A stretch of 64,000 bases of DNA from Haloarcula sp. DT43 (lineage in GTDB: Archaea; Halobacteriota; Halobacteria; Halobacteriales; Haloarculaceae): NCBI RefSeq assembly GCF_037078405.1, contig NZ_JAYMGZ010000001.1, positions 806,001 to 870,000 on the forward strand, in the 5' to 3' direction. The first letter of the stretch is position 1. Each line of letters opens with the position of its first letter. Below, piece by piece: positions 37,619-55,062 of this stretch. Position numbers and translations under genes: made by a program. The notes beneath the pieces are model-generated. The model worked only from the letters and a program-made list of their open reading frames with translations. It was not told the DNA's origin and did not search any database.

Positions 37619-37634
37619 TTTAGGGCAGCCAAAA
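37619..37634. promoter_or_regulatory. degenerate DtxR-like box, upstream copy
   Basis: TTTAGG-GCAG-CCAAAA: an interrupted palindrome with one mismatch in the six-base arms, matching the perfect box centred 35 bases downstream. Part of a two-site operator layout before the gene at 37,677. Confidence 0.55.
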
Positions 37635-37654
37635 CATCGGAGCAGTTAAGTGTT

Positions 37655-37668
37655 TTAGGTCTGCCTAA
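37655..37668. promoter_or_regulatory. DtxR-like palindromic operator
   Basis: TTAGG-TCTG-CCTAA is a perfect inverted repeat eight bases before the ATG at 37,677. The TTAGG...CCTAA arms resemble binding sites of DtxR/IdeR-family metal repressors, to which the haloarchaeal iron regulators Idr and SirR belong. The position would cover the transcription start of a leaderless gene, consistent with repression when metal is plentiful. The regulator is not in the window. Confidence 0.65.
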
Positions 37669-37676
37669 TCCACTGT

Positions 37677-40139
37677 ATGCCACAGAGACGCGACCTGCTG
37701 AAGACGGTGGGGATAGCTGCGACCGGACTGCTGGCCGGGTGTCCGGCGGACGGGTCTTCGGGTCCGAACACGGCGGCGGACACCGACACGGTGGGGCGGG
37801 CGGCAACCGCGGAGACGGACGGCGGTGGCGAAAGCGGCGCGGCGGTCGGCCCGATGACCGCCGTCGCGGCCGAGTGGAACGTCTACCGTGCGCGCATGTT
37901 CGACGCCGTCGCGCTGGGGCGGGCCGGCGCGCCGAGCGCGGGGGCCAGCGTCGCACAGTCCATCTTCGCTCGCTTCGAGGGTGCCTCCGGCGAGTACGGC
38001 ACACACGAGCGCCTGGAATCCGTCTCCGAGTCCGTCTACGAGGGCTTCGAAGCGGCGCTCGGGGAACTCCAGTCGGCGCTCTCCGAGGGCGACGTGGGGG
38101 CCGCGGCCGACGCCGCGAGCGAGGCGTCCGGGAACCTGCAGACGGCCCAGCAGTCCGCCGCCGGGCAGGAAGCGGCGCGGGCCTTCGACCTGCTTCTGCT
38201 CGGAAGCCGCGCGAGCAATGCGGTCGTCGCCGCCAAACTCGGCTCCTTCGAGGGGGCCGCGACGGTGGCCGAGGAAGCGACGGTCGCGTTCGAGGATGGC
38301 CTCGTCTACAGCGCCGTGGAATCGGCCGACACCGAGGCCTACGAGGCCTTCGAGAGCGCGCTCGCCGGCATCGGCGACGCGGCGAGCAGCGAGGACGCAG
38401 CCGCCGTCGCCGAGCAGGCCCGTGCCGCGCTCGACGCGGCCGTCCAGGGGGCTTACGCCATCGCGCCGACCGACTCGGTCGCCGGTGCGGGCCACCTCTC
38501 GGCGATGCAGGCCCGCGGCTGGGACGCGGCCGCGCTCGCCTCGGGCGGCGGCGTCGGGGCGGACTACGCCCACGCGACGACGCTGAACACGTACCGAGCC
38601 CGCGTTCACGACGCCGCGTGGCTGGCCCGCGCCGGCGAGACGGCTACCGCGGCGACGATGGTCGAGGACGTGTTCGCCCACTTCGAGCGCGCGGCCGCCC
38701 ACGACGCCCTCGAAGAAGCGGACGGCGAGGCTTACGAGGGATTTGAGGCCGGCCTGTCGGACCTCTCGTCGGCCATCGAGAACGGAGACACCGAGGGCAT
38801 CGCATCGGCCGTCGAGACGGTCGAAACCAACCTCGTCGCCGGTATCGGGGCGCTGGCCGGCGGGAACGCGCCGGTCCTCCAGTCGGGCTTCTTCAGGGCC
38901 CGCTTCGCCGACGCGCGCGAACTGTACCGCCAGGGCAATGCGGGGCGTGCGGCGACGCTCGTCCCGGACCTCTTCGCCCGGTTCGAGGAGAACCAGCTCG
39001 ACTTCCACGAGACGCTTGAGGAGACCAGCGAGGACCTCTATCACTGCTTCGAGGAGGAGCACCTGGCGGGGCTCCAGTCGGCCTACGAGAACGGCGACGA
39101 CGACGCGGTCGGGACCCACCACGACGGCGTCCTCGCGGCCCTGCTGGAGTTCGAGTCGACCCACAGCGCCGCCGTCGCCAGCGGGTCCGGCGCGACGTAC
39201 ATGGTCGGCCTCGCCTTCGACGCCGCGGCGACGAGCGCGCTCGGGAACCCCGACCGCGTGGCCTCGACCGCTCAAAGTGCGCTGGCGTTCTTTGAATCCG
39301 GGGCCGCCGGCTACCACGAAGCACTGGAGGAGGTGAACGAGGACCTCTACCACCGCTTCGAGGACGAAGCGCTCGGTGGCGTCATCTCTGCTGCGAATGA
39401 CGGCGGCGACGTCAACGCGGCCGCGAAGACGTTCGCCGACGCGGCCATCGACTCAGTGACGGCCGTCGTCGGGTCGAGCGGCGGCGAGACCGGAGCCAGT
39501 GCCGCGAGCATCGTCAGCGACGTGTTCGCCGTCTTCGAGAACGCCGCGGTCCACGACGAACTGGAGAACGCAGACGCCGAGGCGTACGAGGCCTACGAGG
39601 CCGCGCTGAACGACTACGTCACCTCGCTGGAGAGCGGGTCGACTGACGGCGTGACCGCGTTCGCGGACGCCGCCCGGACCGCGGCCTTCGCCGTCGTCGG
39701 CGCTGTCGATAGCGCCCCGAGCGGGTCTGGCGGCCACGGCGGCGAGTCCGAGGCGACCGAGACGTCGCTGTCCGGCGGTCCGAACGTCGTCGAGGGTGTC
39801 CCCGACGACGCGGACCACGTCGTCGACATGGAGGCAGTCGCGTACGCGCCGGAGGAACTCACCGTCAGCGTCGGTGACACGGTCGCCTGGGAGCACGTCG
39901 GCGGCGAACCGCACTCGGTCACCGCGGTCGAGAGCGACCTTCCGGAGGGGGCGACGTACTGGGCCTCCGGCGGCTTCGAGAGCGACTCGGCCGCGCGCGA
40001 GGAGTGGGAGAACGGCGAAGGCGCGGTCCAGTCCGGCCAGAGCTACGTCCACACGTTCGAGACGGCCGGCGAGCACGCCTACGTCTGCATCCCGCACGAG
40101 GCCGCGGGGATGGTCGGCACCGTCGTCGTCGAAGAGTAG
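37677..40139 (+). CDS. repeat-containing Tat lipoprotein with C-terminal halocyanin (cupredoxin) domain
   Basis: An 820-aa exported lipoprotein: twin-arginine signal (QRRDLLK) and lipobox LAGC with Cys-22. Residues about 60-690 hold six degenerate alpha-helical units of about 75-100 residues, each with a core like DVFAHFE plus EAYEGFEAAL (the kind of protein annotated DUF5059, from memory). Residues about 720-820 form a type I copper domain with likely ligands His in GEPHSV, and Cys, His and Met in YVCIPHEAAGM. It would sit on the outer membrane face and could pass electrons or handle metal. The DtxR-like boxes before it indicate control by iron or manganese. Start ATG at 37,677 is fixed by the signal peptide. 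Confidence 0.85.
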   Translation: MPQRRDLLKTVGIAATGLLAGCPADGSSGPNTAADTDTVGRAATAETDGGGESGAAVGPMTAVAAEWNVYRARMFDAVALGRAGAPSAGASVAQSIFARFEGASGEYGTHERLESVSESVYEGFEAALGELQSALSEGDVGAAADAASEASGNLQTAQQSAAGQEAARAFDLLLLGSRASNAVVAAKLGSFEGAATVAEEATVAFEDGLVYSAVESADTEAYEAFESALAGIGDAASSEDAAAVAEQARAALDAAVQGAYAIAPTDSVAGAGHLSAMQARGWDAAALASGGGVGADYAHATTLNTYRARVHDAAWLARAGETATAATMVEDVFAHFERAAAHDALEEADGEAYEGFEAGLSDLSSAIENGDTEGIASAVETVETNLVAGIGALAGGNAPVLQSGFFRARFADARELYRQGNAGRAATLVPDLFARFEENQLDFHETLEETSEDLYHCFEEEHLAGLQSAYENGDDDAVGTHHDGVLAALLEFESTHSAAVASGSGATYMVGLAFDAAATSALGNPDRVASTAQSALAFFESGAAGYHEALEEVNEDLYHRFEDEALGGVISAANDGGDVNAAAKTFADAAIDSVTAVVGSSGGETGASAASIVSDVFAVFENAAVHDELENADAEAYEAYEAALNDYVTSLESGSTDGVTAFADAARTAAFAVVGAVDSAPSGSGGHGGESEATETSLSGGPNVVEGVPDDADHVVDMEAVAYAPEELTVSVGDTVAWEHVGGEPHSVTAVESDLPEGATYWASGGFESDSAAREEWENGEGAVQSGQSYVHTFETAGEHAYVCIPHEAAGMVGTVVVEE

Positions 40140-40146
40140 TGCCATC

Positions 40147-40164
40147 TTTTCGGCTGGCCTAAAA
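40147..40164. promoter_or_regulatory. degenerate DtxR-like box, second locus
   Basis: TTTTCGG-CTGG-CCTAAAA, seven-base arms with one mismatch, centred 35 bases before the perfect box at 40,183-40,198. It begins eight bases after the stop of the cupredoxin gene. The two-box spacing is the same as before 37,677. Confidence 0.5.
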
Positions 40165-40182
40165 ACCGATGCCTTTTTGTGC

Positions 40183-40198
40183 TTTAGGGTAGCCTAAA
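40183..40198. promoter_or_regulatory. DtxR-like palindromic operator, second locus
   Basis: TTTAGG-GTAG-CCTAAA is a perfect palindrome seven bases before the ATG at 40,206. Sequence, spacing to the start codon and the accompanying degenerate box all copy the arrangement before 37,677, so both loci should answer to the same metal-dependent repressor. Confidence 0.65.
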
Positions 40199-40205
40199 CA
40201 AGTGT

Positions 40206-40334
40206 ATGCCGGACGAACAGGCCACGTCGAGGCGGACCGTCCGTCGCCGTAGCGAGTCGGGTACTGCCGTCCCTGTCGTCCGCGCAAACGCCGCCCGACG
40301 GGAGGTGAGCACCCAGGCCGTGCCCGCTGGCTGA
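40206..40334 (+). pseudogene. short reading frame behind the second metal box, probable remnant of a Tat-exported protein
   Basis: Only 42 codons follow the well-formed operator-promoter: MPDEQATSRRTVRRR and so on, then TGA. SRRT followed by further basic residues looks like a twin-arginine signal that has lost its hydrophobic core, as if the frame had been altered after the first residues. No recognisable protein continues in any frame up to the endonuclease gene at 40,662. I read this as the 5' end of a decayed metal-regulated gene; it could also be a genuine small protein. Confidence 0.35.
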
Positions 40335-40661
40335 CCTGTCAGTCTCGACCATCTTGAGCGGCGACGACCACCGTGGGCATAGCCCGTCGCCGCGCGCCAC
40401 GAGTTTTTCGTGTCTGTCCCGTGGGCGTCTCGCCCCAAGGACGCCCCGTTTCAGGTCCTTCGCCGCGGACCACGCCGGAGCCGCCGATTCCCGCCAGCGA
40501 CCGGTGTCCCGAGAGTACGTCTAATCTCAGCCCGACCGACTCGGGGGCGGCGGCGTAGACCGGCCATCCGCAAGAGAGTGCTGCCGGCATTTGCTGGGGC
40601 CCACAGAACGGCCGTGCGATTCGGGACAGGCGTTTTGTCGGTCCCAGCCCTGACACCGGGT
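40335..40661. other. 327 bases without a convincing gene
   Basis: The stretch between the short frame and the endonuclease III gene is G+C-rich, and its open frames read Arg/Pro-rich sequence typical of shadows. It may hold the decayed remainder of the gene that began at 40,206. I see no repeat or RNA gene in it. Confidence 0.4.
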
Positions 40662-41237
40662 ATGAGCGACGAGGAACCAGCGGAGAACATCAGCGGTGGG
40701 GCCGCTGGCGGCGGTCAGTCGGCCACGTTCGACCCCGAGACGGCGGGCACGCGGGCCGAAGCCGTCGTGGACCGCCTCGGCGACCTGTACTGGCAGAAGA
40801 CCTACGGGGGCCGGGACGCCTTCGAGTGCCTGGTCCGGACGGTTCTCAGCCAGAACACCTCCGACAAGGCGAGCCAGCCCGCCCACGACGAACTGATGGC
40901 GCGGTACGGAGACGAGTCGGGGGACGGGGACCTCGCCCGCGCGCTGGCCGACGCCGACCAGCCCGAACTCGCCGAGACCATCTCCTCGGCAGGGCTCTAC
41001 AACCAGAAGTCCGAGCGCATCGTCGCCCTCGCCCAGCGTATCTGCGAGGAGTACGGCGGCGAGGCGGGCTTCGACGAGTTCGTCAGGGAGGGCGACCCCG
41101 AGGCGGTGCGGTCGACGCTGCTGGACATGAACGGCGTCGGCCCGAAGACCGCCGACTGCGTCCTGCTGTTCGCCGGCGGCCGCGGTGGCGTCTTCCCAGT
41201 CTACACCGTAGGGGCTGCTAACATTACGATAACATAA
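40662..41237 (+). pseudogene. nth: endonuclease III, truncated by the mobile element
   Basis: A DNA glycosylase/AP lyase for oxidised pyrimidines, cut short. Residues 1-182 are normal Nth: the helix-hairpin-helix motif with catalytic Lys (LDMNGVGPKTADC) is intact. The frame then reads GVFPVYTVGAANITIT and stops. Family members continue PVDTHV with the catalytic Asp, followed by about 80 residues including the four-Cys iron-sulfur cluster. Homology ends with acc at 41,205-41,207, and the Asp codon reads tac (Tyr). The product would be inactive. The 3' part of the gene should lie beyond the right edge of the window, on the far side of the inserted element. Confidence 0.9.
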
Positions 41238-54735: not shown

Positions 54736-55062
54736 ATGTCTTCACGTGCTTACCAAGGGGTCACTGTCTCGACCATTCGGAGTGACTACCTCGTGCTTGT
54801 GTCCCTCGGGGGAAGTCTCGTTGGCGAGAGCCGTCCGTCCATCCGAATTGAAGGAGTAACTGAAGATGGGGTGTACTGCGTCGTTGCTGTTGAATGCGAT
54901 GTCTCCGAGTACTTCGCTGTAGAGCCTGAAGCATCGGGCGCAGGTAAAGACGGGGACTGCAGACAAGTGACCAGTTACTGGGTGCAGGATGACCTCGACT
55001 CCATCGTCGCTGGTCTAAAACCGGTGGGCGAACCAATTGGAATCCGTCTGGGCGTAGTATAG
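54736..55062 (+). CDS. small acidic protein, second of a paralogous pair
   Basis: A 108-aa protein with two hydrophobic strands near the start (YLVLVSLGGSLVG) and a C-terminal block resembling the preceding gene. The ATG at 54,736 is preferred over an in-frame start at 54,709 because a degenerate shared promoter motif ends 12 bases upstream. Function unknown. Confidence 0.6.
   Translation: MSSRAYQGVTVSTIRSDYLVLVSLGGSLVGESRPSIRIEGVTEDGVYCVVAVECDVSEYFAVEPEASGAGKDGDCRQVTSYWVQDDLDSIVAGLKPVGEPIGIRLGVV

Follow-up and report, generated by a model that had tools for sequence, protein, structure and literature searches.

Comparison of related genomes indicates that the second of two promoters with paired DtxR-type boxes heads a conserved structured RNA and not an ordinary gene. 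Both promoters (P1 and P2) lie in the window, i.e. the whole 64,000-nucleotide stretch of Haloarcula sp. DT43 DNA that was analysed. The hairpin loop of this RNA, ACCGUGGGCAU, is the exact reverse complement of AUGCCCACGGU, the start of a [2Fe-2S] ferredoxin gene. We consider it likely, at a probability of roughly 0.7, that P1 and P2 belong to an iron-starvation regulon in which the small RNA made from P2 pairs with the ferredoxin start, blocks translation and spares iron. That this is a DtxR-controlled archaeal iron-sparing RNA, with its loop over the ferredoxin start codon and perhaps also encoding a peptide, appears reasonably probable. The first-pass annotation had suggested an iron or manganese regulon with repressor dimers bound on nearly one face of the helix; an iron-type regulon was supported and the common face was not, and the structured RNA behind P2 had been missed.

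Box pairs and the iron regulon

Two pairs of the palindrome TTAGG-N4-CCTAA are present in the window, at 37620-37668 and 40149-40197, both with the centre-to-centre spacing of 35 that had been described for them. In each pair 8 bases separate the perfect box from the ATG that follows (37677 for P1, 40206 for P2), in agreement with the 7-8 bases given earlier. The features of the two promoters and of the P1 gene are as follows.

37620..37633, + strand: P1 distal box, TTAGGGCAGCCAAA, 9 of 10 specified bases
37646..37650, + strand: putative TATA-like element of P1, TTAAG, assigned by its position between the boxes
37655..37668, + strand: P1 proximal perfect box, TTAGGTCTGCCTAA, 10 of 10
37677..40139, + strand: gene for a protein with DUF5059 and a plastocyanin-type cupredoxin domain, 820 aa, lipobox-like N-terminus
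40149..40162, + strand: P2 distal box, TTCGGCTGGCCTAA, 9 of 10
40172..40179, + strand: AT stretch of P2, putatively TATA-like, assigned by its position between the boxes
40184..40197, + strand: P2 proximal perfect box, TTAGGGTAGCCTAA, 10 of 10

In both promoters an AT stretch occupies the usual TATA position between the boxes, and the proximal box stands between this stretch and the ATG. The simplest reading of such a pair would be two repressor dimers flanking the TBP/TFB site. The nearly common helix face that had been proposed for the dimers is not supported, because 35 bp correspond to 3.33 turns at 10.5 bp per turn. Spacings of 33-37 and, among the matches listed, of 26-27 are nearer to half-integral turns.

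Perfect boxes occur twice in the window and in none of 100 shuffles. Boxes with up to two mismatches were not enriched in the window (11 versus 7.25 expected, a count of 11 being reached by 12 of the 100 shuffles), so that single loose boxes carry little weight. Over the whole genome, 13 perfect sites were found against about 1.5 expected from the base composition of the window; one-mismatch sites showed no excess there (28, versus 33 for a reversed-pattern control). A genome-wide scan for pairs, defined as a perfect box with a partner carrying at most one mismatch, placed 8 of the 13 perfect sites in 7 pairs with spacings of 26, 35, 35, 35, 36, 36 and 37. Among 60 related genomes, 50 contain a perfect box with a partner 20-50 bases away, and none contains the reversed control. 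Two further arrangements were noted: among the matches listed, a second class of pairs is found repeatedly in the genus, with 26-27 bp spacing and a spacer that is itself conserved (e.g. G000:C4:313864-313903), and four perfect boxes form an array with spacings of 36, 35 and 33 at G029:C7:255043-255160.

The genes beside the other perfect boxes encode three Peripla_BP_2 proteins of the siderophore-binding type, a FecCD permease and an SBP_bac_8 solute-binding protein, together with a GMC oxidoreductase, an RGP-domain protein and a DUF7827 protein. The gene for a DUF7547 protein lies 119 nt from a perfect box, and a ferritin-like gene 105 nt from a box matching 9 of 10 positions. A tandem pair at C1:757848-757897 is located upstream of a DtxR-family gene, which is one of the four PF01325 matches above cut-off in this genome, i.e. 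one of four DtxR-family regulators. With the 13 perfect sites, boxes thus lie upstream of iron genes beyond chance, as in a DtxR-type operator regulon. HVO_1228, the DUF5059 gene of Haloferax volcanii, rises by 4.2 log2 with the siderophore cluster upon endA knock-down (PMC7714728); a table in PMC9051519, where iron genes with lowered values appear too, gives it a value of -2.92. The iron-gene neighbours of the boxes and the behaviour of HVO_1228 support the iron reading proposed earlier, and a role of manganese is possible as well. The box pairs appear to be an iron-regulon design common to the whole genus. As a separate observation, the DtxR-family gene behind the 36-bp pair (L191, G000:C1:757330-757897) is a 123-codon ORF ending in RRPRSYTRRT; a transposase-like ORF lies nearby and the gene may be broken.

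Profile search assigned the P1 product to DUF5059 (PF16502, 925 bits versus a curated cut-off of 25, residues 62-681). Its cupredoxin part matched PF00127 at 55 bits, and plastocyanins were matched in the PDB. Foldseek returned no match to the fold of the DUF5059 protein at E ≤ 0.001, and the AlphaFold model has a mean pLDDT of 67, with the C-terminal residues 677-820 below 50. The P1 box pair is kept in all 22 full-length DUF5059 loci (L016-L037, the split match L038 and cupredoxin-only matches being set aside), with a spacing of 35 in 17, 34 in 3 and 36 in 2. The proximal box is perfect in 22/22, four of these loci coming from other families of the order. Over the window interval 37677-40440, the DUF5059 protein is closest to that of G004 (87%), and the RNA region is closer to G027 and others (94% versus 74%); these differing nearest relatives hint at recombination between the two.

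The putative RNA behind promoter 2

The elements of the P2 unit downstream of the boxes are listed below.

40203..40420, + strand: proposed small RNA, ends tentatively placed, found with covariance model R1 in 31 of 32 genus genomes
40206..40334, + strand: optional ORF of 42 codons
40301..40309, + strand: conserved GGAGGTGAG segment, from alignments and sequences
40358..40393, + strand: seed hairpin, GCGGCGACG (40358-40366) pairing with CGTCGCCGC (40385-40393)
40370..40380, + strand: antisense seed ACCGTGGGCAT, fully complementary to ATGCCCACGGT at the ferredoxin start
40398..40412, + strand: second hairpin, CACGA with TCGTG
40413..40420, + strand: 3′ tail TCTGTCCC, invariant in the alignment and present in 31/31 genus RNAs used

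A DNA search with the P2 region gave matches in 27 of the 32 genus genomes, three of which (L070-L072) matched only through promoters of other proteins. In several genomes that lack a full-length match to DUF5059, the P2 unit lies directly behind a SAM-hydroxide adenosyltransferase gene, and it is therefore independent of the DUF5059 gene. R1, which describes the 3′ part of the RNA, gave a single strong match per genome in 31 of 32 Haloarcula-group genomes, among them all 28 whose completeness is 90% or more; the sole genome without a match, G011, is 71% complete. In 31/31 genomes a perfect box precedes the 3′ tail by 177-316 nt, and a distal box matching at least 8 of 10 positions lies 33-35 bp further up in 27 of the 31 RNA loci. 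The perfect box and the loop are likewise present in all 13 records retrieved with the tail pattern, including Haloarcula vallismortis, H. japonica, H. salina and Halomicroarcula rubra.

The seed hairpin shows changes on both sides in 4 of its 9 pairs. None of 500 shuffles scored as high, and slid versions of the helix were far lower. When the two helices were combined, 99.7% of cells were paired, in an alignment that had been fitted to the model and so favours the helix result. The full RNA was no more stable than its shuffles (z -0.14), and a covariance-model search of 40100-40700 gave no Rfam 15 family match up to E = 1. A 5′ stem in which the first 19 nt would pair with a segment further along was suggestive in many species, with z values of about -2, down to -3.9; it is absent in G022, G029 and G030 and is not claimed. 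A minus-strand ORF through the seed was also discarded, being only 13 codons long in this genome.

Two observations concern the surroundings of these elements. The GGAGGTGAG segment, which we take to be complementary to the 3′ end of 16S rRNA, is nearly invariant within the RNA (window 40301-40309 and relatives), and no conserved ORF follows it. Behind the RNA, an endonuclease III-like ORF (40662-41237) stops after 191 codons at AT-richer DNA carrying another ORF; the corresponding ORF in G019 (L048) has 306 codons, and the one here appears to have been truncated by an insertion of an element.

The ferredoxin start codon as predicted target

Halophilic ferredoxins begin with MPTVEY, and this start was looked for in the genome. 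The sequence ATGCCCACGG occurs there at 10 sites, one of them within the RNA gene itself and another at the start codon at C1:356252 of a gene identified as a ferredoxin by a Fer2 match at C1:356369. None of the remaining sites starts a convincing gene by an ORF check in this genome. A second segment complementary to a start triplet, CTCGACCATCT, was dropped, its complement AGATGGTCGA occurring 63 times in the genome.

Each of the 31 RNAs was compared with the ferredoxin region of its own genome, from -40 to +50. The longest antisense match fell on the start codon region in 31/31, over 12 nt in ten genomes, 11 nt in sixteen, 10 nt in four and 9 nt in one. This match takes in the A of the ATG in 20 of the genomes and stops short of it in 11. 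In every genome compared the RNA is thus complementary in trans to an mRNA encoding an iron protein, as RyhB-type RNAs are, and in two of them this is accompanied by compensatory change. The ferredoxins of G013 and G017 begin with ATGCCAACCGT, where codons 2 and 3 have changed from CCC to CCA and from ACG to ACC, both silently. The RNA loops of the same genomes read ACGGTTGGCA, with precisely the two changes that match those of the ferredoxins, in RNAs that score just 39 bits versus 94-99 in the close clade. In a matrix of eight genomes, the G013 and G017 RNAs match their own ferredoxin start over 10 nt, whereas matches to the ferredoxin regions of the other genomes span 6-8 nt, with one stray match of 10 (G015); the six other RNAs match the G013 and G017 ferredoxins over 6-7 nt only. 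The compensated pair probably reflects one ancestral event, i.e. trans covariation from one lineage.

An 11-nt match at an ATG is not striking alone, since chance ATGs and some shuffled RNAs reach as much. In the window, an 11-nt antisense match was found at 1 of 1098 ATG triplets and a 10-nt match at 2. Among the 10 of 31 genomes tested with 300 shuffled RNAs each, the real match was equalled by 22 shuffles in G015, 7 in G013, 3 in G017 and 9 in G022. The weight of the ferredoxin target comes from the same place being matched in every genome, from the invariant loop bases and from the compensated pair. Elsewhere in the window, at 54776 on the minus strand, an 11-nt match to the segment GTCTCGACCAT of the RNA lies around an ATG.

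R1 was also run over the order, where 37 of 293 genomes matched at E ≤ 0.01, 17 of them genus members. Thirteen non-genus loci (L091-L103) were inspected, weaker non-genus matches without an assigned locus lying outside this set. The TCTGTCCC tail was found in none of the thirteen, and a box matching at least 9 of 10 positions within the 600 bases scanned only at L093 and L096; L093 appeared coding and was rejected as an RNA homologue. A second model, R2, gave matches in 26 of 38 non-genus genomes at E ≤ 0.5, and among the loci inspected box and loop occur together only in L096 (one follow-up match set was restricted to E ≤ 0.001). L096 belongs to G280, from another genus of the same family. 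Its R1 match is weak (24 bits), and its R2 score of 40.8 bits arises by construction because L096 was used in building R2. A perfect box lies about 200 nt upstream, and the loop matches the ferredoxin start of G280 itself over 11 nt. This candidate homologue suggests that the RNA may be older than the genus.

Mechanism, alternatives and known systems

The mechanism proposed here, for which we infer the identity of the repressor, the response to iron, that the RNA is transcribed and that the outcome is repression, would proceed as follows. A metal-loaded repressor of the DtxR family (Idr/SirR/TroR-like), bound to the boxes that flank the TATA region, would hold P1 and P2 off. The P1 product would be the DUF5059-plastocyanin surface protein and the P2 product the structured small RNA. 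Under iron shortage the repressor would dissociate, allowing the RNA to be made. Its hairpin loop would then form 9-12 nt of pairing around the start codon of the mRNA for the [2Fe-2S] ferredoxin, so that initiation of translation would be blocked and iron spared.

P2 could instead yield an mRNA for a small basic protein of 36-43 aa (MPDEQ...), whose 3′ UTR or terminator would be the structured part, the ferredoxin match being incidental. The ORF does remain open for 36-43 codons in 29 of the 31 genomes despite its diverging sequence. However, G015 keeps the RNA, the promoter and the loop with no ATG and hence no ORF, and in G017 the ORF runs to 85 codons. Variable sites of the close clade fall on codon positions 1, 2 and 3 in the numbers 10, 6 and 10, i.e. 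with no third-position excess. Moreover, the strongest conservation is located after the ORF, and the matched changes of G013 and G017 would be left unexplained. An ordinary gene behind P2 was rejected, with an ORF of only 42 codons, no Pfam match to it and its absence from G015. Comparison of the genomes indicates that the ORF is not the conserved element of the P2 unit, and an mRNA for a small protein seems to us unlikely; it is possible that the RNA also encodes a small peptide and has a dual function.

We give similarly little probability to an RNA that pairs with the ferredoxin mRNA and stabilises or activates it, or that has several targets of which ferredoxin is a secondary one. A precedent is archaeal sRNA154, which stabilises some targets and blocks another (PMC5867862), and the conserved segments GGAGGTGAG and TCTGTCCC may have targets of their own. 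Yet pairing at a start codon would be expected to block initiation, and low iron would presumably favour less ferredoxin. The view of the first-pass annotation, two iron-repressed promoters of protein genes with repressors bound cooperatively on one helix face, accounts for box pairs that are real and conserved, but the conservation behind P2 is of the structured-RNA type and the spacing is out of phase with the helix, which makes it very improbable. An iron-sparing RNA directed at the ferredoxin start is the reading that we retain.

If this reading is true, iron sparing by small RNAs arose in archaea too, under another family of repressors, and an RNA can act on the start codon in organisms whose mRNAs are often leaderless or nearly so. 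Since sequence alone yields a promoter, a structure, a target and a natural compensatory variant, the mechanism is testable in a genus with cultured species. A literature search, made mostly among papers open without subscription, found no archaeal small RNA that spares iron or targets ferredoxin, and the transcript may have been sighted earlier. Judging from the papers cited here, few archaeal small RNAs appear to have a known target.

Among regulators of iron genes in haloarchaea, Idr, SirR and TroR are comparable as DtxR-family proteins with iron-uptake targets, and the accessible part of PMC11349517 mentions no RNA target in their regulons. HVO_1228 (DUF5059/halocyanin) resembles the P1 gene in that a DUF5059 protein moves with siderophore genes in Haloferax, whereas regulation here is tied to the conserved box pair. 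The Methanosarcina sRNA154 and sRNA41 are likewise archaeal intergenic RNAs, and sRNA154 uses a loop to cover the ribosome binding site of a target mRNA; they serve nitrogen control and not iron, with a different target and structure (PMC5867862).

The closest functional parallels are bacterial. IsaR1 is an iron-sparing small RNA of this kind. RyhB and PrrF (PMC3516471 for the RyhB type) are small RNAs of an iron-repressor regulon, and they share with the RNA described here a start region pairing, predicted in our case, with the mRNA of an iron protein; FsrA, a further bacterial iron-sparing RNA, shows the same likeness. No sequence relation between these RNAs and the present one is known. Unlike its bacterial counterparts, the present RNA is archaeal and lies behind DtxR-type boxes, not Fur boxes, and its seed is held in a hairpin loop over the ferredoxin start codon. 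By analogy with the RyhB-type RNAs it should act alike, and what would be new is an archaeal RNA behind DtxR-type boxes whose hairpin-loop seed faces a start codon.
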